A stretch of 64,000 nt of DNA from Flavobacteriales bacterium (GTDB taxonomy: Bacteria > Bacteroidota > Bacteroidia > Flavobacteriales_D > Sanyastnellaceae): contig JAIXWX010000034.1 in assembly GCA_027491075.1 (NCBI GenBank), forward strand, positions 124,001 to 188,000, given 5' to 3'. Position numbers and translations under genes: made by a program. The notes beneath the pieces were generated by a model. It had not been told where the DNA came from and made no database searches. It worked only from the letters and a program-made list of their open reading frames with translations. Shown in pieces: positions 14,156 to 41,189 of the stretch (positions are counted from its first letter, which is position 1; each line of letters begins with the position of its first letter).

Positions 14156-14986
14156 ATGAATAACGACATGGATCAGAAGAAAAAGTTTTGGGGGGGATTG
14201 GAAATACCGTTTAAGAAATCGGAGAAAGAGGCTTGGGATGCTATTCAATTGCGCATTGCGGAGTCCTCATACAAGGCCACCAAAGTTCGCCAACTGTCTC
14301 CTTGGAAAATGGCTGCTGCTGCTGCTATTGCTTTGATGATTGGTTCTGCGGTTTATTTCAATTATTTTTCTTCGCAAACCATGATTGCAGGCACCCGCAA
14401 AGGTGAATTCAAAACAGTTACCCTCCCAGACGGCTCTATTGCAACCCTGAATGCGGACGCAACCATTAGCTACGAAAGTAATTGGGATGGAAACAGAGAG
14501 GTTCAACTTTCAGGAGAAGCTTTTTTTGATGTCAAGAAAGGAGAACGCTTTCAAGTAATTACGGATAACGGAACGATTGAAGTTCTCGGAACCTCTTTTA
14601 ATGTTTACTCGAGAGAGAAAGACTTACACGTGGTTTGTGAGACTGGAAAAGTTTCAGTTAAAAGCGGTGGGCAAGAAGTAATCCTCACTCCGGGAGAAGC
14701 AAGTTTCAATGAAATGGGAGCCCTAAAAAAAGTGCTATCCCCTGCAGTAAGCTCATGGAAATCAGGAGTGTTTAATTATGATAATGTGCCTTTGCGACGA
14801 GTTATTAAGGAGGTAGAGAGACAATACAATGTGGCCATTACGACGGATGGACTCAGTGATCTACATTTTACCGGTCAACTTGGGAATACCAATTTGGAAG
14901 AGACTTTGAACCTTCTAACAGCCCCATTCAATCTAGGGTTTGAGAAGATGAGTGACGGTGTTTTCGTAGTAAAAGCTATACCATAA
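14156..14986 (+). CDS. FecR family anti-sigma factor
   Basis: 276 residues. A short cytoplasmic part (1-48) that should bind the sigma factor, one membrane segment (about 50-68, WKMAAAAAIALMIGSAVYF), a periplasmic FecR domain (about 78-170, GEFKTVTLPDGS, LSGEAFFDVKKGE, VLGTSFNVYS) and a C-terminal DUF4974 domain (about 200-274, FNYDNVPLRRVIKEVERQYNV). It senses the STN domain of the receptor. Its position last in the cluster, after the receptor and lipoprotein, differs from the usual sigma-FecR-receptor order. A run of seven G residues (14190-14196) lies near the 5' end. A 60-base gap precedes it. Confidence 0.9.
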   Translation: MNNDMDQKKKFWGGLEIPFKKSEKEAWDAIQLRIAESSYKATKVRQLSPWKMAAAAAIALMIGSAVYFNYFSSQTMIAGTRKGEFKTVTLPDGSIATLNADATISYESNWDGNREVQLSGEAFFDVKKGERFQVITDNGTIEVLGTSFNVYSREKDLHVVCETGKVSVKSGGQEVILTPGEASFNEMGALKKVLSPAVSSWKSGVFNYDNVPLRRVIKEVERQYNVAITTDGLSDLHFTGQLGNTNLEETLNLLTAPFNLGFEKMSDGVFVVKAIP

Positions 14987-31808: not shown

Positions 31809-34028
31809 TTACTTTTTATCTAAAACAATAACGTCAGACCATTCCTTTGGATCCATTATGCAATGGGCGATGCGTCCTATGTAATACCCCGTGGCGACGT
31901 CATTTTCTCGCCACTCGTGGCATTGTTCAAAGTGTTTGCCTGCATCGATAAAACGTTTCTCCTTGTAAGCCGTTAATCCAAGATTCCATTCTTCAATGAA
32001 TGAGCGGTGATTTTCACGGTTTTCAAATCGATCCATAAGTTCGAAAATAACAACAGGTTTGGCCTTGCCTTTGACAACCACGGAAGATAATTCACGGAAG
32101 ATGAATCGATCAGAAAGTACGGCGTCTTTTGTCCTTTGAGAAACGAGAACATTCACACCAAAAAACTTAGTGAGCGATTCCAAACGACTCCCTAGATTTA
32201 CAGCGTCACCAATTACCGTATAGTCAAAACGTTTTGCACTTCCGATATTTCCTACGGTCATATCACCTGTATTTATCCCTATTCCTATAGACAAAGGCTC
32301 TCCATTTTTTTCTTTTTGAATTCTATTGAACTCCTCGAGTTCTTCAATCATTTCAAGGGCTACATAGCAGGCTCTTGTCGCATGATCTTTTTGAAAGATA
32401 GGTGCGCCGAAAATAGCCATGATAGCGTCACCGATGAATTTGTCAATTGTTCCTCTGTGATGAAGAATAACATTGCTCATTCGACTGAGGTAATCATTGA
32501 GCATAGCTACAATTTCTTGAGGATCGAGCTTTTCCGAATAGGAGGTAAAGCCACGAATATCTGAGAAGAGCACGGTGAGTTCCTTCTTTTCTCCTCCTAG
32601 TTGAAGTCGTGATGCATCTTTCGTTATTTGTTCTACTACTTCAGGAGATACGTATGTTCCGAAAGCATATTTCAATCTGCGACTGCTTCTTTCTCTAATA
32701 AAATAAATATACAATGAGCTAAGTATATAGCTTAATAAAGTGAGCAACATAAAACTCACGATTGGTATGATGAGATTGAATTCGGGCATCAGATAAAGCA
32801 CATAGAAAAACAATTCTCCAAAGACTAGTAGCAGGCTTGTAATAAAACCAAAAATGGGTTTAAGGGTGAGGAATAGTAAACAGAGAAAAAAGGAGGCCAG
32901 AATTAGCCATGGTCTGGATTCTTGTTGATTATAGTCTTTAAGAAATGCATTATTCATGATGTTCAAGAAAGCGATAGCATGAATTTCCACTCCAGGCATT
33001 TTTGAGCTTTTGCTCGGGACTGTTTTTAAATCCTGCATTCCACTAGCGCTCGTTCCAAAGAAGACAAATTTATCCTTAAAAAATTCCGAAGGAATTCTCC
33101 CATCTACTACTTTATGAAAACTGATATAACGAATACTTTCTTCGTTGCCTGGCCAGTTGATTCGAAATGTAGCATCACTAGAAAGGGGAATGTTGATGGC
33201 TTCATTTAAGGTCAAACGACTTTTTTCCAGAATAACGGAATCCTCTACTATTCCTAATGCATCGATTGCCATGTATAAAGGGAAATTGGCAATGTACATG
33301 GGGACACCGAAGTCCAATGGAATTTCATGAAGTAAGTGATATTGCCTTACGGTACCATCTTGTGTAGTAGGCATACTAATGGTTCCAACTGCTTTGGCGG
33401 TTGCGGAAAATTCTGGTATCGGTAACACGGGATGACTCAACATTGGGTACAGCAAAGTGCTGTCTAATGTCCCCATTATCATTCTCAAGTACCCCAGATC
33501 ATTGGTGTCCATCATGATGTCGTACTTGGCGTCGTCATCATAAAGTCCCAGATAGACTTTTTTTGATTCAAAGATTACCTGAGCCAAAGAATCATCACTG
33601 CTCAAAGAGTGAAGAATCTCTGAAGCGTTTTCTACTCCTCGAGCTTCAAGCATTTGTGTGTATACTTCTGGAAGTGCATCGCGTTCCGTGTAGAGATAGT
33701 CAATGCCAATTGCCAGAGGCTCTCCCGAATTCACATGATAAATAGCCGCCGCATCAAAACTCCGTGGCCATAATTGGGGTCTCCCTAAAGCTTCTATACT
33801 CGCGTCATCAATGTCAATGATCACGATGTCATCTGTAGTGTATTGCTTAAGTAAATTATTCTTTTTTCTGACTTGAAAAGCGAGATCAATGATTTGATTT
33901 TCCAAACCCGTCAAAGGAGAACGCGCCATCATGGAAGAAAAGAAGATCAATCCTTCCGTAACAGACACACAGAGCGACACTAAAACAAGAAAGCTCAGAA
34001 AACGCTTCAGCAAAAAGGTATAGCGCAC
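31809..34028 (-). CDS. CHASE2-domain adenylate cyclase
   Basis: 739 residues. An N-terminal membrane segment (about 8-30) leads to a periplasmic CHASE2 sensor (about 35-370: IVIIDIDDASIEALGRPQLWPRS, KFVFFGTSASGMQDLKTVP), then three hydrophobic segments (about 375-455) and a class III nucleotidyl cyclase domain (about 480-690). Metal-binding Asp residues lie in LFSDIRGFT and FIGDAIMAIFG. Lys in DKFIGD and Thr in YTVIGDAVN are the pair expected for ATP. Asn and Arg of NLGSRLE are the transition-state residues, so all catalytic positions are present. It is the last gene of the four-gene operon, nine bases after the FecR-TPR gene. Confidence 0.92.
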   Translation of the reverse strand: MRYTFLLKRFLSFLVLVSLCVSVTEGLIFFSSMMARSPLTGLENQIIDLAFQVRKKNNLLKQYTTDDIVIIDIDDASIEALGRPQLWPRSFDAAAIYHVNSGEPLAIGIDYLYTERDALPEVYTQMLEARGVENASEILHSLSSDDSLAQVIFESKKVYLGLYDDDAKYDIMMDTNDLGYLRMIMGTLDSTLLYPMLSHPVLPIPEFSATAKAVGTISMPTTQDGTVRQYHLLHEIPLDFGVPMYIANFPLYMAIDALGIVEDSVILEKSRLTLNEAINIPLSSDATFRINWPGNEESIRYISFHKVVDGRIPSEFFKDKFVFFGTSASGMQDLKTVPSKSSKMPGVEIHAIAFLNIMNNAFLKDYNQQESRPWLILASFFLCLLFLTLKPIFGFITSLLLVFGELFFYVLYLMPEFNLIIPIVSFMLLTLLSYILSSLYIYFIRERSSRRLKYAFGTYVSPEVVEQITKDASRLQLGGEKKELTVLFSDIRGFTSYSEKLDPQEIVAMLNDYLSRMSNVILHHRGTIDKFIGDAIMAIFGAPIFQKDHATRACYVALEMIEELEEFNRIQKEKNGEPLSIGIGINTGDMTVGNIGSAKRFDYTVIGDAVNLGSRLESLTKFFGVNVLVSQRTKDAVLSDRFIFRELSSVVVKGKAKPVVIFELMDRFENRENHRSFIEEWNLGLTAYKEKRFIDAGKHFEQCHEWRENDVATGYYIGRIAHCIMDPKEWSDVIVLDKK

Positions 34029-34037
34029 AATTTCTAT

Positions 34038-34721
34038 TTATAATTTGGCTAGAACTTGCTCCGCATCTGCTTTTAATGGGTCATTCGGATAGAGCACGAT
34101 GAAATTTTGAAAGATCTCTTTTGCTTTGATATTGTTGTTAGACATGATATAGGAATGTCCTAATGCGAACATTGCATAACGTGCCATTTCATCTTTTGGT
34201 TTTTGATTTAAAAAAGCTTGGAGGGCAGCAATGGCCTTTCCGAAGTCTTTAGATTCATAAATAGAATATGCTTCTTCAAAGGAAATCTCTTTGTCCTCTT
34301 TCCAATACACCGTTTCTTTTCCCTTTTCATCGGTGGTGGTTTCATCTCGGCGGATGCCCCCTTCTTCAGAGCGCTTGGCACCTGCTTTTGTATTTACCTT
34401 TGCTTTGAAGCCAGTAAATACTCCTTCTGTTTCTGTTTTTGCCTTGCTTGAATTTGCAGCCATCAAGTCGGAAATACTTTGATTGGAATTTGGACCGACA
34501 ACGGTTTTAGTACCATTGCTCCAGAGTATTTCCGCGAGCCCTGATCCCATGGTACGTATCCGCTGTTCTTTTTTAACCTCATTATTGAGCTTAACAGCAG
34601 TCCAGTCTTTTCCATTGCCAATTTCTACTTTACCTTCATAGTAAATAATTTTTCCCGCAGACTGGGCTAAAGCGGCGTATGAAAATATTACCGCTACGAG
34701 TGAGAGGAGAAAGCATTTCAT
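34038..34721 (-). CDS. periplasmic FecR-domain/TPR protein
   Basis: 227 residues. Signal peptide ends ALA, then Gln. A FecR-like beta-domain (about 25-95: IIYYEGKVEIGNGKDW, IRTMGSGLAEILWSNGTKTVVGPN) is followed by a charged linker and TPR-like helices (about 150-225, SIYESKDFGKAIAALQAFLNQKP). Unlike anti-sigma FecR proteins it has no membrane anchor and no cytoplasmic tail, so it is a periplasmic partner rather than an anti-sigma factor. It overlaps the upstream giant gene by 4 bases and precedes the CHASE2 cyclase; FecR next to CHASE2 cyclases is a known pairing in other bacteria. Confidence 0.8.
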   Translation of the reverse strand: MKCFLLSLVAVIFSYAALAQSAGKIIYYEGKVEIGNGKDWTAVKLNNEVKKEQRIRTMGSGLAEILWSNGTKTVVGPNSNQSISDLMAANSSKAKTETEGVFTGFKAKVNTKAGAKRSEEGGIRRDETTTDEKGKETVYWKEDKEISFEEAYSIYESKDFGKAIAALQAFLNQKPKDEMARYAMFALGHSYIMSNNNIKAKEIFQNFIVLYPNDPLKADAEQVLAKL

Positions 34722-37700
34722 CGTAATTGAAGTTTTAGTGTTGTATAATCGGAATCTAATTTAGGGTTTATTTGAATAGCTTGCTGAAAATATTCAGTAG
34801 CTTTATTTTTATTACCTCTTAATAGTTCTGCTTTGGTGAGATTTATAAGTATTTCAGGATCTGAATTGTCTTTTTTCCATGCAAGTTCATAGTATTCTGC
34901 TGCTTTATCACCTAAACCTTGCAGAAAATACAAGTTTCCTAAGTTGTTAAGGATGATCGGGCTATTGGGACTCAATTCTAGGGCTTCAAGATAGATTTTT
35001 TCTGCTTTGACTTCTCCGCCAGTTTGGGCCAGTAATGTTGCATACTTGTTCTTTACAAACACATTGTCTGGTTCGGTGAGATAGCGATTTTCCATTTCAG
35101 TGATGATCTCCTTTTTGATAACGACCAGAAGTTGTGCAATTTGTTCGTTGTATTCTGAGAGCATTTCTTCAGTTCCCTGCGGAATTTCAGTGAAACCAGG
35201 TGGGTGATAATCTGCAGGAACATAAACCGCCCTGGCATCCGATAAAGGAACAATCTCCGGAAAATTACCTGCTGTGAGTTCTTGGTAGTAGCGCTTGGCG
35301 GCCGCTTTCCACGCTGATAGAAAAGCATTCTTGCCCAATAAGGTAGTTTCGATGGGAATCCAAACTTTCTCGTCGTGAATTATTACATCCAATGGACTGA
35401 TACCCGACTCAACCAATTCGTTGGGGCGTATGCGACTATCAAAAGCCATGAAAACGTGTCCAGGCACATCGATGTATGCAGTGCTCACGCCCACATTCTC
35501 CAAAAGCGAGCAATACATAGCCACAAGATCGTCACAATCACCAGTCTTTTTTTGCATGGTCTCTGCTGGAAATTGCAAATAGTCCAAGATGTCAGTATTA
35601 GTGGAGACATTCGCAAACACATAGTTGGGGTCAGGGGTGTATCTGAATCCAAGTCGATTGCACAAGGTGTACAATTGCATCGCTTTTACCAAGTTTTTCG
35701 GTAAACCATAAGTTGCTTGGTCGGCAAAGAACAAGTCGGTTTGTTTACCATATCCAGCCATAAGTTCTGAGTTGGGGGTGACAAAGGACGCTAGGCATCG
35801 CTTGTCTTTCCAGCTAATGGCATTGCGCCCATGAATGGTGATGGTGCCGCTTTTTTTTGCTGTTCGAGTTTGACCATTGTTTTTATAATACACCTCAATT
35901 TCTATTTGCATCTTTTGATCCGAAGTAATATCCAAAATCTTTTGATTGAAGATGGCGCCAATTGCCAGAGATGTGTTTGAGTATCCCACCAATGCGGGAG
36001 AACTTAGTTTACTACTCTGATCCATCACACCATTAATGAACACGCTGATTCCAGAAGGAGTGATGGGTTGTGCACTATTGTTGGCGACAATAATCTCTCC
36101 TATGGAAAGTAGCTTTAAGTCGGCATAGTTTCTATATAAAGAAGGAAAAATATCTTTGATTCGTACGTCGATTATTTCCAAAGCATCGCTGCTCTTGGAG
36201 CGCTGATCTCGTAATTTTAATGCGGTGCTATGGGCATTGCTGTAAGTCTCGTTATCAGCGTCAATGCGACATGCGCTGTAGAATGCGTTGACAGCGTCAT
36301 AATAGAATCCGGCATTCATATTGGCTTTTCCAAGTCCATAGTATGCTGCATCATTGGTGCTTTCTACTTCTAATACTCGCTTATAAGCGGAGATACTTTC
36401 ATTGTACTGTCCGAGTTGTTCATACAATTTAGCGCTTCTCATTAGATAATTGTTCAGTTTGTCCCGAATGCTCTTTACCTCTGCATCAGGAACAAATCGA
36501 TCTTTTGCCTCTTGGAGTCTCTTTTCTTCATAAGGAATAGCTATCGCATAGCAATCAATTGCTCTCTTTATATTGTCGCTACCTTGAAAAGCTTCTGCGA
36601 GAGGGCCATAGTAGCTTTTTTCTGAAGGAGCGAGTTTAATAGCTTTTTCTAATTGAAAAGAAGCTTCAACATAATTCTTATCCTTTAGCTCGATTTCACC
36701 AATCTTAGCTATGTATTTCGGATTGAGTCGATCTGATATGAGCAATTGCTGATAAAGTGATTTTGCTTCTTGCGTTTTTCCATTCAGAAGCAGGGCGTAC
36801 GCATATTGAGCTTTGACCTCGATATTGTTTTCATTGTCTTTGAGGATTTTCTCATACTCCAATGCAGCTAAATCATGCTTTCCTTGCATGCTGTATGCTT
36901 GTGCCAACAATGATCGTAATTTAAAATTATTCTGAGGGCCCATCGCTACTGCATTCTGAAGAAACTCTGTACGAAGCACTTTTTCTGTTTCGTCATATTT
37001 TCCTAATGCATTTAAAATTTGAACTTGGCTAATAAGGACATCATAATGGGGTATGTTGTTTTTCTTCAAGCCCTGCAACGCAGTATTCCCATTCTTTTCT
37101 GACTCTTGTAGAATCGATACTAGCTCGAAAGAAGGCTCTCCCAAGAGTTGTTTGTATTGATACATCTTGTACCCGCTTTGAGTCAAACTGCCCCAATACT
37201 TGGAATTTTCTGGCGCCCATTCTGTTAGTTTCTTTTGCAAGTACATCCCATTGCTTATGCTCTTTTCATTGGGCAAAGAAGTGAGATATGAGGATAGGGA
37301 GTCTACCGCGGTGAAAACGATATCGCGAATGCCTTTTGCATTTTTGAATTTCTCTGCCTCTTGAAGTATTGCGTTGAATTCATTTCGATTGGCCAAATGC
37401 AAAAAGTAATATTGATAAACTTCGGTGTAAGCCGACTGAACCTCTGGATGATCAGGATCTAAAATGAAAGCATGACGAATGAGCGGAAGGGCTTTCATTA
37501 CATCACCTTCTTTGGCTAATTGCTTGCTGAAAAAACCAATTTGCTTAGCAGTATAGGTTTTGAGCGGTTGAGAAGATTTCATCTCTTTTTGCATACTCTG
37601 AAATGCAATGAGCGCATCGTCATAGTTTTCAGAAGCCATCAGTTTCATTCCATATTGAAAATAGTCTTTGAACCCTTCAGTGGCCTCAGATGCGTCCGTT

Positions 37701-39709
37701 GGACTCAAACTAATAAGGCGATAGGAACGTAATCGTGGCACTTTTGACAAGTCATTTTCTAAGATTAATGGGCCTACGGAAGTTTTTACCACCAATGAAT
37801 CCCTTCCAGATTGGCTTTCTGTGATTAAGGCGTATCCAATTACTGAATTTGATTTGACCTCCTCATAGTTCACCGCTAATTTTTCGTTTTGAATATCGAA
37901 ACTAAGGTTGTTGGTCGGCTTTGGCGGTTGAAGGGAAAGGCGAAGTGCTTTGACGGGTTTATCTTTTTCATTGGAGGCATAAACAACAAAAGTTCCAGGA
38001 TCAAAATGAATATGCTTGATTCCTGAGAAGCCGGAAACCCCTTCTGTTCTTCGTCCATAAGAAAATTTTAATTCTGGCTCTTCTTCCCAAGTATAAATTT
38101 CGAGCTGTCCAGTAGTTTCATTTAAGAGATGAATTTGATCAAGTGGATCAAGATAAAAATCGATGATCGTTCCAGATTTGCCGCCTTGCTTTTCTGGTCT
38201 AGCAGTTAATTTCTTAATAGAAACAGGCCATCCTGATGAACCTACTTTATAGATACAATTTTCACGATCGTCCCAAATGAACAGTTGGCCCTTTGATCCG
38301 ATTCGAATTTTATAGGGCGAACTTATTCCAGAGTTTTCTTTACTTACTAAAACCTTGTCATAGATGCCCAAGGAAGTCCAGGAATGAATATTTCCTGTTG
38401 CATTATCACAAACAAGTAATTCACCGTTATCACGAAAATCTAATGAAGTAGGATGCTTCAATTTGTTTGGGATGTCTTGTCCTATTTTCCGGGTCATTAC
38501 TCCCGTAGAATCAAATAGAATAATGGCTTTTTCTTTCAAATCACTCACATATAAGGCGCCTTTGTTATTACATGCAATATCACTTACATCAGAAACTTTA
38601 TTCTGAATAATGAACTGTGGCGTAGAACTGGTATCTCGGTATGCTGTAATAGTAGAAGGCTGATCTGAATGAATAGCATATCGCCTTCCAGTTGGATTGG
38701 CTGCATAATGAATCATGGAGGATTTGGTCGTCCCCGTTTCTTTTACATTGATTTTTTTAAAAGGAATTGCCATTACGGATTTTCCTGGAAGGTAACTGGC
38801 AACTTGTGTTTTTTTGGCGTTGTAATCGTAAATGTAAATGGCATTCGTTTCATCGAAAGATGTGGCTATAAGTAGAGCATTTTCAAAGCTGCCGGCGCCA
38901 AATTCTCCAACGGTACCATACGTTCCTAAAACGTCTCCCAATCGATTGAATTGAGTAATGGTCATGTTGTCTCCATCTAGTAGGAAGAAATCACCATTAG
39001 GAGCGGCGCACATACCGATTGCGTTTTTTATAATGGTGCTTGCTTTTGATCCAAGATTTCTTGCTGAATTAATCATACGCGTACTTGCGTCAAATACCAG
39101 TACGGATGGTTCTGATTTATCAAGCACATAGAGCTCGTTATTTTTATTGCAAGAAATAGAAATAGGATTGGAGAGGGATACTATATCTCCAATGATATTC
39201 GTGAGATATATTCCTTCGGGAGAATAAATGTCGATTTGCTTCCGTGCACCATTGAGCACATATATAAATCCTTCGGTATCCGCTGTTAAGGAAAGTACTT
39301 TGTCAAACTTTCCAGGACCACTTCCGTTTTCTCCGAAAAGAAAGCTACGGCCATTGTCGTTAATCACCGCTATTTTTCCCAGCTCTTCATCATATGCAAT
39401 AAGTCGATCATTGTTGTCAACACACACGTATTTAGGTATTTCTAAAGAAACTTTTGTAGAGCCTGCGCCTACGATTTTAAGTGTTCTTATTTGAACACCA
39501 TAGGGATCAATGTGGTGGATGACTCCAGCGCTTTGATTGCATAAATAGATTTCGCCTTTGGAATTGACTGCCATAGAAGAAACCTTTCCTCCTGAAATAG
39601 CTGTTTCAGTGGGAACCGTCGTCTTAAACTGCAAACTTTGAGAGGCAGATCTGGAAGCTATTAAAAAAAGAAGTATTGTAAGTGTTGTAAGTAAGGAGAG
39701 TTGTTTCAT
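34718..39709 (-). CDS. giant secreted propeller/TPR/transglutaminase-like protein
   Basis: 1663 residues. Signal peptide ends SAS, then Gln. Residues about 40-610 resemble NHL/SMP-30 propeller blades (YVCVDNNDRLIAYDEELGKI, FDSTGVMTRKIGQ). Residues about 690-1190 hold TPR repeats (AQYAYALLLNGKTQEAKSLYQQLL, AYYGLGKANMNAGFYYDAVNAF), then a beta-sandwich region and a transglutaminase-like segment (about 1420-1470) with Cys in TGDCDDLV and His in PGHVFMAFD. More TPRs close the protein (NNLGNLYFLQGLGDKAAEYYELAW). No T9SS sorting signal is seen. It is the second gene of the cyclase operon, overlapping the FecR-TPR gene by 4 bases. Function unknown; a scaffold or sensor for the cyclase system is inferred. 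Confidence 0.75.
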   Translation of the reverse strand: MKQLSLLTTLTILLFLIASRSASQSLQFKTTVPTETAISGGKVSSMAVNSKGEIYLCNQSAGVIHHIDPYGVQIRTLKIVGAGSTKVSLEIPKYVCVDNNDRLIAYDEELGKIAVINDNGRSFLFGENGSGPGKFDKVLSLTADTEGFIYVLNGARKQIDIYSPEGIYLTNIIGDIVSLSNPISISCNKNNELYVLDKSEPSVLVFDASTRMINSARNLGSKASTIIKNAIGMCAAPNGDFFLLDGDNMTITQFNRLGDVLGTYGTVGEFGAGSFENALLIATSFDETNAIYIYDYNAKKTQVASYLPGKSVMAIPFKKINVKETGTTKSSMIHYAANPTGRRYAIHSDQPSTITAYRDTSSTPQFIIQNKVSDVSDIACNNKGALYVSDLKEKAIILFDSTGVMTRKIGQDIPNKLKHPTSLDFRDNGELLVCDNATGNIHSWTSLGIYDKVLVSKENSGISSPYKIRIGSKGQLFIWDDRENCIYKVGSSGWPVSIKKLTARPEKQGGKSGTIIDFYLDPLDQIHLLNETTGQLEIYTWEEEPELKFSYGRRTEGVSGFSGIKHIHFDPGTFVVYASNEKDKPVKALRLSLQPPKPTNNLSFDIQNEKLAVNYEEVKSNSVIGYALITESQSGRDSLVVKTSVGPLILENDLSKVPRLRSYRLISLSPTDASEATEGFKDYFQYGMKLMASENYDDALIAFQSMQKEMKSSQPLKTYTAKQIGFFSKQLAKEGDVMKALPLIRHAFILDPDHPEVQSAYTEVYQYYFLHLANRNEFNAILQEAEKFKNAKGIRDIVFTAVDSLSSYLTSLPNEKSISNGMYLQKKLTEWAPENSKYWGSLTQSGYKMYQYKQLLGEPSFELVSILQESEKNGNTALQGLKKNNIPHYDVLISQVQILNALGKYDETEKVLRTEFLQNAVAMGPQNNFKLRSLLAQAYSMQGKHDLAALEYEKILKDNENNIEVKAQYAYALLLNGKTQEAKSLYQQLLISDRLNPKYIAKIGEIELKDKNYVEASFQLEKAIKLAPSEKSYYGPLAEAFQGSDNIKRAIDCYAIAIPYEEKRLQEAKDRFVPDAEVKSIRDKLNNYLMRSAKLYEQLGQYNESISAYKRVLEVESTNDAAYYGLGKANMNAGFYYDAVNAFYSACRIDADNETYSNAHSTALKLRDQRSKSSDALEIIDVRIKDIFPSLYRNYADLKLLSIGEIIVANNSAQPITPSGISVFINGVMDQSSKLSSPALVGYSNTSLAIGAIFNQKILDITSDQKMQIEIEVYYKNNGQTRTAKKSGTITIHGRNAISWKDKRCLASFVTPNSELMAGYGKQTDLFFADQATYGLPKNLVKAMQLYTLCNRLGFRYTPDPNYVFANVSTNTDILDYLQFPAETMQKKTGDCDDLVAMYCSLLENVGVSTAYIDVPGHVFMAFDSRIRPNELVESGISPLDVIIHDEKVWIPIETTLLGKNAFLSAWKAAAKRYYQELTAGNFPEIVPLSDARAVYVPADYHPPGFTEIPQGTEEMLSEYNEQIAQLLVVIKKEIITEMENRYLTEPDNVFVKNKYATLLAQTGGEVKAEKIYLEALELSPNSPIILNNLGNLYFLQGLGDKAAEYYELAWKKDNSDPEILINLTKAELLRGNKNKATEYFQQAIQINPKLDSDYTTLKLQLR

Positions 39710-39725
39710 TGAGTGTTCATCTATT

Positions 39726-40316
39726 TCATGTCGTGGTATTAATTTGACTTAGGTTTATAGCAAGTTGTGGACCACGATATTGTTTGGAGTAATCGGTGTG
39801 ATAAATGATGTTGCCTAAGAACTTTATTTGAAGCTCGTTCCATTGATCTCGATCCTGAATGTCGCCGCATGCAATCAGTTCTTGAAAAAGTCCTTCAGCA
39901 ATTTCACTAAAGTCCTCCCGGCCTAGATAGTCAAGGTCAGCGTCACATAAAATTCGTTCATGAATCGTTTGGGGACTTTGTGGAATACATGTCGCCATGA
40001 TGCAGTTTTTAACGAAATCATAATATTGATGTTCGAATTTATGCTTTCGCGCATATTCCTCAAAAACCTCACAGCTATGAAGCTCGTGATTTTTCCGCTC
40101 GACCAAGTATCCCGTATCATGAAATAGAGCGGCTACTTTGAGCAGGTCGATCTCTGCCTCAGTCAGTTTTTCGCCATGACCTATTTTGATGGTCATCTCG
40201 ATTACATCTAAGGTGTGCCTGAGACTGTGATATTTATAGTGCGCAGGTATTTCATTGAGCAAGCGATTGCAAACATCATCTAAAACCCTATCGTAGAAAT
40301 TCCTTGGGTTCGTCAT
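39726..40316 (-). CDS. HD-domain phosphohydrolase
   Basis: 196 residues of an HD fold: YHSLRHTLDV supplies the first His, AALFHDTGY the HD pair, HELHSCEVFEEYARK the following His, and CDADLDYLG the distal Asp. HD proteins often hydrolyse nucleotides or cyclic nucleotides. As the first gene of the operon ending in an adenylate cyclase, a cyclic-nucleotide phosphodiesterase role is attractive but unproven. It starts 45 bases from the divergent universal stress gene and 16 bases separate it from the giant gene. Confidence 0.8.
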   Translation of the reverse strand: MTNPRNFYDRVLDDVCNRLLNEIPAHYKYHSLRHTLDVIEMTIKIGHGEKLTEAEIDLLKVAALFHDTGYLVERKNHELHSCEVFEEYARKHKFEHQYYDFVKNCIMATCIPQSPQTIHERILCDADLDYLGREDFSEIAEGLFQELIACGDIQDRDQWNELQIKFLGNIIYHTDYSKQYRGPQLAINLSQINTTT

Positions 40317-40361: not shown

Positions 40362-41189
40362 ATGAAAAAAATTCTTGTTCCTACTGACTTTACTTCTGTT
40401 TCAGATGTTGCGATTAAGTACGCCATTGACCTTGCCAAGCACTCAGGTGGAGATGTCTACCTTTTACACATTGTAAAACATAAAGATGATGTGAATGATG
40501 CAAAGGATAAACTTGATAAGAAAGTATTAGAATTCAGTCATCTGGGAGGTGATAAATTAAAGCATATCGTTCGCGTCGGAAATATTTTTGACGATATTCC
40601 GAATGTAGCACACGAAGACAATGCGGAGATTGTGGTTATGGGAACGCATGGTCTTCAAGGCATGCAATTTATTGTCGGAAGTCATGCGCTTCGAATTATT
40701 ACCGAAAGTAAAGTGCCGATGATCATCGTTCAAGCTGAAACCAAGCACAGCGCGAAAGTGTCAAAGTTGCTATTACCGCTTGATTTACATAAAGAAACTA
40801 AACAGAAATTGAAAATTGCAGGAGATATTGCCGAGCGGTTCAAGGCTGAAGTTCATTTGATTTCGCCGAAGGAAACGGATGAGTACTTGTTAAACTTTTT
40901 GAAAAGAAATATCAGTTATGCAGAAGGATATTTGGAGTCGAGAGACATTCAATACAAAACAGTCATTACGGAGTCGGGAAGTGGTGGCTTTGTGAAAGAG
41001 CTTATGCAATATGCAGATGCGAATGCAATGAATATGATTTGTATTATGAACTCTGCTGAAGAAAGATTGATTCATGCTTTTGGTATGGATAGTGAGCAAA
41101 AGATCATCACAAACGAACCTGGAATTCCAGTAATGGTCATCAACCCAGCTGCGACGTTAGTCGATTCTGCATCAATTTTTGCTCAATAA
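40362..41189 (+). CDS. tandem UspA-domain universal stress protein
   Basis: 275 residues with two Usp folds. The first (about 1-128) is well conserved: KKILVPTDFTSVSDVAIKYAIDLAK, then VVMGTHGLQGMQFIVGSHA, a near match to the ATP-binding G-x2-G-x9-G-S pattern but one residue short. The second (about 135-262) starts SKLLLPLDLHKETKQ and lacks that glycine motif, so it probably does not bind ATP. It is divergent from the HD/cyclase operon across only 45 bases, so shared control is possible. Confidence 0.9.
   Translation: MKKILVPTDFTSVSDVAIKYAIDLAKHSGGDVYLLHIVKHKDDVNDAKDKLDKKVLEFSHLGGDKLKHIVRVGNIFDDIPNVAHEDNAEIVVMGTHGLQGMQFIVGSHALRIITESKVPMIIVQAETKHSAKVSKLLLPLDLHKETKQKLKIAGDIAERFKAEVHLISPKETDEYLLNFLKRNISYAEGYLESRDIQYKTVITESGSGGFVKELMQYADANAMNMICIMNSAEERLIHAFGMDSEQKIITNEPGIPVMVINPAATLVDSASIFAQ

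Follow-up and report, generated by a model that had tools for sequence, protein, structure and literature searches.

What does a CHASE2 receptor recognize in the cell envelope, and which proteins bring the signal to it? The ligand of CHASE2 was stated to be unknown in 2016, in the available part of one report (PMC5192318), and no later answer on what CHASE2 recognizes was found in the open literature covered. The question is raised here by a locus at positions 31809–40316 of a window of 64,000 nucleotides, the whole stretch that was analysed, from a Flavobacteriales bacterium (contig JAIXWX010000034.1, positions 124,001 to 188,000 of the forward strand). A sequence-only reading had described a four-gene operon at this locus, encoding an HD-domain hydrolase, an exported giant protein, an exported FecR–TPR protein (here called the adaptor) and a CHASE2 nucleotide cyclase, and had put it forward as an undescribed envelope signalling system. 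Four open reading frames (ORFs) do lie in these places, all on the minus strand, and the claimed spacing between HD, giant, adaptor and cyclase (16 bases, a 4-base overlap and 9 bases) was borne out. Judged by gene content and order in other genomes, giant, adaptor and CHASE2 cyclase are a conserved three-gene cassette, of which the HD gene is not a core member. The best explanation of the whole, to which we give a probability of about 0.5, is that these three proteins form one envelope-to-cytoplasm sensor. The core genes are given below; the label "exported" for giant and adaptor was read by eye from their N-termini, and model confidence is given as the predicted local distance difference test (pLDDT).

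34718..39709, minus strand: giant, presumed exported, 1663 amino acids, reading propeller, TPR, immunoglobulin (Ig)-like, transglutaminase-like, TPR; core (Pfam, alignment, model)
34038..34721, minus strand: adaptor, 227 amino acids, with a presumed signal peptide, a FecR/retention-module-like β domain, a linker and TPRs; core (model, pLDDT 84.8)
31809..34028, minus strand: CHASE2 class III nucleotide cyclase, 739 amino acids; core (Pfam)

Among 114 genomes of the family, a protein search found true giant homologues in 7, with a best row of ≤2e-265 in each. When the neighbourhoods were read, giant, adaptor and CHASE2 cyclase were present in order on one strand in 7/7; the giant of G040 is spread over two contigs and its cyclase split into two ORFs, and contig ends truncate giant or cyclase in G030 and G027. 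An order-level sample of 299 genomes returned the same 7 giant genomes and no further ones. For a phylum sample of 395 genomes, an adaptor profile gave 8 full-length matches, and all 8 adaptor-bearing genomes carry the three genes in the same order. Only full-length rows were counted, the raw matches (49/114 for the giant in the family and 144/395 for the adaptor in the phylum) including weak TPR-type rows, and the window's genome is included in both the family (7) and the phylum (8) sets. The expectation that the four genes would occur together across Bacteroidota held for the three-gene block, whose recurrence in order goes beyond chance, and failed for HD, which is mostly found elsewhere. 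When the phylum sample was searched with the transglutaminase-like domain of the giant, those 8 genomes ranked top (E < 1e-115; next 8e-96); this ranking serves as a consistency check, because the search profile was built with relatives from 7 of the 8. CHASE2 was found by a separate search in 12/114 family genomes, all 7 giant-bearing ones among them, and in 137/395 genomes of the phylum sample; because the domain is so common, the giant implies CHASE2 and not the reverse. Presence of the cassette is patchy, since neither giant nor CHASE2 was found in G039, a genome of the same genus that is 99% complete. The CHASE2 cyclases of G057 and G104 have different neighbours and are not cassettes; they may be foreign to their bins.

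An all-phyla contig scan with the single giant sequence gave no match. A profile of its best-conserved domain, the transglutaminase-like one, did match, yielding 153 relatives, of which 80 were kept. These 80 loci come from Bacteroidota, Ignavibacteria, Calditrichaeota, Gallionellaceae and other Proteobacteria, Spirochaetota, Nitrospirota, Elusimicrobia and Cloacimonadota; no Campylobacterota were among the 80 kept of the 153. Within 1.5 kb, a CHASE2 or cyclase match was present in 63/80 loci and an adaptor in 71/80, each by its own profile; the neighbourhood profiles were built from loci under study, and those loci match by construction. Fifty of the 80 loci were well flanked, with ≥2.5 kb on the upstream and ≥3.3 kb on the downstream side. 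Within 1.5 kb, CHASE2 and cyclase matches fell in one protein in 42/50 (40 on the same strand; the cyclase of L115 and L143 is on the opposite one), the adaptor was present in 46/50, and such a cyclase and the adaptor together in 42/50. At least 12 of the 80 loci, 8 of them among the 50, belong to genomes of the family and phylum samples, and because of these shared contigs the scan is not independent of those samples; minus the 8 loci that repeat already counted genomes, the fractions are 34/42 for the cyclase and 38/42 for the adaptor. The proteobacterial loci that were read usually have the order cyclase, giant (~1250 amino acids), adaptor (~130–190 amino acids). The idea that the giant is a partner of CHASE2 receptors is borne out across several phyla by the cyclase count in the well-flanked loci, and we consider it very probable that giant, adaptor and CHASE2 cyclase are functional partners.

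Shorter relatives of the transglutaminase-like protein extend this association to another output. Ranks 9 to 47 of the domain search in the phylum sample (E ≤ 1.3e-25) comprise 39 loci, of which 38 were read; G563 was left out. Eleven encode a transglutaminase-like protein of 826–858 amino acids; a CHASE2 cyclase on the same strand accompanies 8 of these (5 directly beside, 3 one gene away), lies on the opposite strand in 1 and is absent from the stretch in 2. The protein of the other 27 loci has 644–683 amino acids, and in 19/27 a second adaptor family lies directly beside it on the same strand. A protein matching CHASE2 and sigma-54 receptor profiles is present in the stretch in 13 of those 19, and Pfam recognized a CHASE2 + Sigma54_activat fusion in 7/7 scanned from the 19. 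The remaining 8/27 have a sigma-54-type protein upstream; in the two of this group that were scanned, the sigma-54 domain comes with a CHASE2 match that is partial and, in one case, below cut-off. An hhalign comparison aligned the two adaptor families over 214 columns (probability 95.5). In the second family (L261–L287) a linker stretch ending in [HY]G recurs at the position that GGVR has in the first family, in 8/19 as TAVYG. That transglutaminase-like protein, adaptor and CHASE2 form a set is argued most strongly by these shared parts, which come with either cyclase or sigma-54 output.

Other arrangements were seen around CHASE2 and around the giant. At 14 of 30 CHASE2 loci of the phylum sample (L175–L204) the start of the CHASE2 cyclase falls from 4 bases before to 11 bases after the end of another large protein, and several of these partners, which are cut at the locus edge, share GKRVRG; this is a different type of CHASE2-cyclase partner. 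A short true FecR protein, a protein of ~800 amino acids and a CHASE2 cyclase occur together at L092:1–5003 and L093:9588–15076; the ~800-residue protein of L092 has no Pfam match, and the L092 arrangement directly precedes a giant cassette. Cyclase-less CHASE2 proteins of 411–423 amino acids, directly followed by a FecR-like exported protein, were found at L051:7943–9959 and L052:230–2228. At L109:6875–14498, from Calditrichaeota, giant and adaptor are present with no CHASE2 protein in the stretch, and the next gene is of Schlafen AlbA_2 / NB-ARC / TPR composition.

The receptor itself is the clearest part of the cassette in Pfam, where CHASE2 (1.5e-42, 146.4 bits versus a cut-off of 26.3) and Guanylate_cyc (1.3e-30, 106.8 versus 21.9) are found in one protein.

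32880..33929, minus strand: CHASE2 domain, amino acids 34–383, predicted periplasmic, the orientation being inferred (Pfam)
32055..32588, minus strand: cyclase catalytic domain, amino acids 481–658 (Pfam)

Residues D490, K530, D534, T604, N611 and R615 are invariant in 13/13 aligned cyclases; we take these six to be the metal, base and transition-state positions needed for catalysis. The product is predicted with good confidence to be cyclic AMP (cAMP). No other class III cyclase (PF00211 match) was found in the genome, which also encodes three proteins with cyclic-nucleotide-binding domains; one of these seems to begin like a response regulator, and the other two seem about as large as CRP-type regulators. 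A few genes upstream of the cassette, G408 and G320 encode a protein of 170–171 amino acids, which in G408 has a cyclic-nucleotide-binding domain.

For the giant, Pfam reports NHL and TPR repeats; for the 1249-residue Gallionellaceae giant (L126) it reports NHL, fn3, a weak Transglut_core and TPR. The propeller region lies outside the BLAST match in G307, G383 and G681.

37910..39622 (approximate, by eye), minus strand: N-terminal propeller of NHL repeats (Pfam)
35075..36172, minus strand: Ig-like plus transglutaminase-like region, amino acids 1180–1545, the best-conserved part (model, pLDDT 93.6)
35534..35536, minus strand: codon of C1392, presumed nucleophile, in a GDCDD motif (alignment)
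35456..35458, minus strand: codon of H1418, in a PGH motif (alignment)
35348..35350, minus strand: codon of E1454, presumed third triad residue (alignment)

The label "transglutaminase-like" finds Pfam below threshold and is backed by a confident model and an invariant triad. The Transglut_core cut-off was not reached by the window region (E 0.029, 15.1 bits versus 23 required), a weak match, best 7.5e-4 and likewise sub-threshold, was seen in 12/13 giant homologues, and a sequence search found no solved relative of the region. In the cross-phyla alignment of 56 rows, Cys is present in 55/55 and His in 55/55 of the rows with a letter, and Glu in 56/56; Glu is unusual as a third triad residue. 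The core of the model (residues 120–313) was superposed on peptide:N-glycanase 1x3w with a modest Z of 9.1 (root-mean-square deviation (rmsd) 3.7, 155 aligned), the first 115 residues resemble a transglutaminase β domain (Z 11.2), and the best solved structural matches of the domain are peptide:N-glycanase and transglutaminases. As modelled, the core of the giant belongs to the transglutaminase-like superfamily by fold and by its Cys-His-acid triad. As separate observations, the giants of Spirochaetota loci L136, L148, L163, L165 and L172 have the triad intact and no adaptor or CHASE2 was found nearby (L165 has little flank), several proteins of ~1950 amino acids in the phylum sample weakly match the profile of the domain, and NCBIfam weakly matches amino acids 1203–1493 of the window's giant to ProA, an anti-phage protein, at 27.3 bits, which is far short of the cut-off.

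Between giant and receptor stands the adaptor, for which Pfam gives TPR-type families. Its model consists of a β domain, a helix (residues 94–119), a low-confidence linker with a conserved motif, and then TPRs.

34443..34667, minus strand: β domain, amino acids 19–93 (best structural match 5ix9, "Cell surface anchoring domain")
34302..34361, minus strand: linker, amino acids 121–140, beginning with the GGIRR motif (alignment; pLDDT mostly <50)

The β domain aligns with 5ix9, which we take to be a Marinomonas adhesin domain, at Z 12.3 (rmsd 2.7, 74/76 residues, 22% identity; Foldseek E 2.4e-4). Compared with adhesin retention modules the fold matches, but TPRs follow the β domain, there is no adhesin, and the protein ends at 227 amino acids. 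The earlier label "FecR" fared less evenly: no Pfam FecR match (PF04773) was found for the window's adaptor at E ≤ 1, nor in the search of its own genome at E ≤ 10, and the label has indirect support from structural and profile comparison. For 13 adaptor relatives the FecR check covers the top 25 of 34 Pfam families. Run against 8 test sequences, a profile of the adaptor N-domain scored 25 bits with the FecR protein of L093, which is itself Pfam-positive (FecR 3.1e-12), and did not match the window's own FecR protein. The latter (window 14156–14986) is the only Pfam FecR match found in the genome; it reads like an anti-sigma FecR protein and is unrelated to the cassette. Within the linker, G122–R125 (GIRR) is invariant in 14/14 aligned adaptors, and G[VIL][RK][GRK], with YW 2–24 residues further on, occurs in 67/71 of the wider set. 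The motif sits in a stretch modelled as mostly disordered (pLDDT < 50). The sequence [TAP]AAG is found anywhere in the ORF in 17/71 adaptors, and in the linker, as AAGGVRG, in 13/71. The proteobacterial adaptor has a presumed signal peptide, a short stretch, the motif and a TPR-like end, to which the Bacteroidota form adds the N-terminal β domain.

Because the giant is conserved across phyla and has shorter relatives with another CHASE2 output, envelope proteins acting on CHASE2 are the natural reading. In the sensor that we propose, giant and adaptor would work in the periplasm, where the propeller and TPR arrays of the giant would sense envelope state and the adaptor would be the ligand read by CHASE2. 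The transglutaminase-like site of the giant would engage or cleave the adaptor linker, as LapG acts on the linker that follows an adhesin's retention module, and the changed contact between adaptor and CHASE2 would switch the cyclase. We lean slightly towards a contact between adaptor and CHASE2; that the linker is worked on by the transglutaminase-like site is put forward as a doubtful, tentative step. In the available part of the source, LapG is a transglutaminase-fold cysteine protease with a C-H-D triad, whose substrates have a β retention domain, a helix, the cleavage site [T/A/P]AAG and an unstructured segment (PMC13090378). The Lap-like step is proposed because the anatomy of the adaptor (β domain, helix, linker) and the transglutaminase fold parallel LapG and LapA; the likeness is one of anatomy and not of family membership, and no LapG entry is among the structural matches listed for the transglutaminase-like model. 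Stated in full, this would be an inward-run Lap-like system: the giant would cut or grip the linker of an adaptor that carries a retention module, and the adaptor would be read by CHASE2 receptors, whether their output is a cyclase or a sigma-54 activator; we offer it as speculative and, taken whole, rather improbable.

A number of observations weigh against this sensor or its cutting step. Most of the 137 CHASE2-bearing genomes of the phylum sample are without the giant. Among the 50 well-flanked loci, 4 keep giant and adaptor with no CHASE2 cyclase within 1.5 kb (L109, L130, L132, L164), and 4, all Spirochaetota, have neither adaptor nor CHASE2 cyclase within that distance (L136, L148, L163, L172). 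Cleavage of the adaptor is an inference; no Pfam match to the LapG family (BTLCP) was found for the window protein at E ≤ 0.01 or, among the 6 families matched, for 13 members at E ≤ 1, and the third triad residue is Glu (56/56) where LapG has Asp. A motif similar to that of the linker is present in FecR proteins beside other CHASE2 cyclases (AVAAIRGT, ASVRGT; L092, L093), and IGGV[SY]RG is present in the FecR-like partners of cyclase-less CHASE2 proteins with no giant in the stretch (L051, L052). The second adaptor family is without GGVR...YW in 19/19. The genomes of L051 and L052 gave only a weak 65-residue match to the transglutaminase-like profile, located elsewhere. Given these FecR-type motifs (L051, L052, L092, L093), docking or a part in the fold is a likelier role for the linker motif than that of a cut site. 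The candidacy of GGIRR as a cassette-specific cut site is weakened by them and by its absence from the second adaptor family (0/19); on sequence, the linker motif may serve in docking or in cutting.

If the motif docks, the giant could be a structural receptor that binds a peptide or glycan without cutting, and the adaptor, its FecR-type motif placed on CHASE2, would relay occupancy. Such a scaffold is possible and deserves to be kept in view, although we do not favour it. It accords with the FecR-type motif beside CHASE2 in stretches with no giant (L051, L052, L093) and, as far as the available parts of the papers describe them, with FecR proteins beside CHASE2 receptors in Burkholderia (PMC5192318) and Campylobacterota (PMC9239204) and with MtxA of magnetotactic bacteria, an exported protein with a β-rich region, an Ig-like domain and TPRs that precedes a CHASE2 cyclase (PMC4439547). 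However, an invariant Cys-His-Glu across several phyla is more than a binding fold needs, and the motif is no general mark of CHASE2 neighbours: among the 30 best phylum CHASE2 loci (flanks of 1.5 kb), a neighbouring ORF with the motif or FecR form was present in 2, both of them cassettes.

The enzyme of the giant might instead act on another envelope protein or on a peptidoglycan-linked substrate, the cassette then reporting envelope damage via the adaptor. The kinship of the domain with peptide:N-glycanase and transglutaminases would suit this, as would the branch of 826–858-residue relatives, where a CsgG-like protein was near in the two loci scanned (L250, L259), in place of an adaptor. 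Yet in both adaptor-bearing branches the adaptor gene directly follows the transglutaminase-like gene, and we think another substrate unlikely.

The sequence-only reading had also counted the HD gene as a fourth core member. It and its divergent neighbour are:

39726..40316, minus strand: HD-domain hydrolase, 196 amino acids, not core (Pfam HD 6e-8, weak PDEase_I 0.0068)
40362..41189, plus strand: universal stress protein, divergent from HD and outside the cassette (Pfam Usp)

A four-part system, with HD as the dedicated nucleotide remover of the operon, would fit its place 16 bases upstream of the giant, the same adjacency in G027, and the phosphodiesterase of the Campylobacterota cluster as given in the available part of that paper (PMC9239204). 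A class III cyclase match on the other side of HD in 14/18 of the other family loci viewed (L212–L229) is also in its favour. We nevertheless judge the four-part system improbable: HD adjoins the giant in 2/5 family genomes with a readable upstream side (the window's genome and G027), the stretches read around the 7 cassettes outside the family showed no HD gene, and the gene occurs in 36/114 family genomes, 31 of those without the giant. A universal-stress gene adjoins HD in 18/18 of the same 18 loci, and the cyclase neighbour in L212, the one scanned with Pfam, is a response regulator fused to a cyclase domain. Residues H34, H66, D67 and D127, presumably the HD metal residues, are among those invariant in 20/20; the PDEase_I cut-off was not reached (E 0.0068, 16.6 bits versus 24.8), and a sequence search found no solved relative of the protein. 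By its neighbourhoods, HD with the universal stress protein appears as a unit of its own, tied to cyclases generally. The same neighbourhoods favour a role in cyclic-nucleotide turnover and not cassette membership, and we regard the HD protein as an accessory candidate cyclic-nucleotide phosphodiesterase outside the sensor. The recurrence of HD, universal stress protein and class III cyclase match in the family is, in its own right, a candidate cAMP turnover unit.

Anti-phage signalling of the Pycsar kind is very improbable and was set aside after a PADLOC search of the four proteins. In its favour, the Pycsar cyclase models of PADLOC match the cyclase domain, at best with 2.6e-28, and the giant weakly matches an anti-phage protein in NCBIfam. 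Any class III cyclase, however, would be expected to match in this way, and no Pycsar-type effector gene adjoins the cassette. At E ≤ 0.01 PADLOC gave nothing for adaptor or HD, and for the giant a match of 15 bits only; CHASE2 with exported partners points outward.

We accordingly read the locus as a real and widely conserved cassette of three parts, predicted to signal from the envelope, with the giant as its new element. Neither the giant nor its enzyme-like domain together with CHASE2 was found described in the open literature, subscription papers lying outside the search. A cassette found across several phyla with two exported partners makes the question of CHASE2 recognition directly testable. 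If true, an inward Lap-like system would represent a widespread sensor class that turns envelope state into cAMP or transcription, and many CHASE2 domains would then have a named ligand. To our knowledge, a Lap-like mechanism is so far known for biofilm adhesins only, and the Lap protease is not part of a giant propeller/TPR protein. The adhesin-anchoring fold of the adaptor and the kinship of the giant with the transglutaminase fold would tie cAMP sensing to a biofilm-adhesin mechanism.

Several described systems share parts with this cassette and are compared here as given in the available portions of the papers. In Campylobacterota the CHASE2 cyclase mostly stands in a gene cluster that also encodes a FecR-domain protein, a TPR protein and a cAMP phosphodiesterase, and one pathway has been proposed for them (PMC9239204); with such a related four-gene cluster in print, the claim that the system is undescribed is weakened. 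The two are alike in combining a CHASE2 cyclase with FecR-domain and TPR proteins and a phosphodiesterase; they are unlike in that the available portion makes no mention of a giant, a propeller or a transglutaminase-like domain, the comparison being one of descriptions only (PMC9239204). The MtxA pair likewise sets an exported protein with a β-rich N-terminus and TPRs beside a CHASE2 cyclase, whereas MtxA has a bacterial Ig-like domain and no giant is mentioned in the part available; deletion of mtxA gave no visible phenotype under standard conditions (PMC4439547). The Burkholderia BiofilmReg operon shares a FecR-domain exported protein beside a CHASE2 receptor and differs in its histidine kinase output and LysM domain, with no transglutaminase-like protein described there (PMC5192318). 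Sinorhizobium CyaD1/Clr resembles the cassette in having a CHASE2 cyclase and cAMP, and the targets of Clr include a FecR protein as well as a large TPR protein; unlike here, these are target genes of Clr and are not described, in the available text, as cassette partners of the cyclase (PMC5498481). A CyaD1 construct without CHASE2 is reported to make cAMP constitutively (PMC5498481), a point in favour of the proposed sensor. LapD/LapG/LapA has in common with the proposed sensor a transglutaminase fold, a substrate made of β domain, helix and motif, and an inner-membrane receptor tied to a cyclic nucleotide (PMC13090378). In that system the nucleotide controls the protease, whose triad is C-H-D (PMC13090378); here the triad is C-H-E and the signal would run inward.

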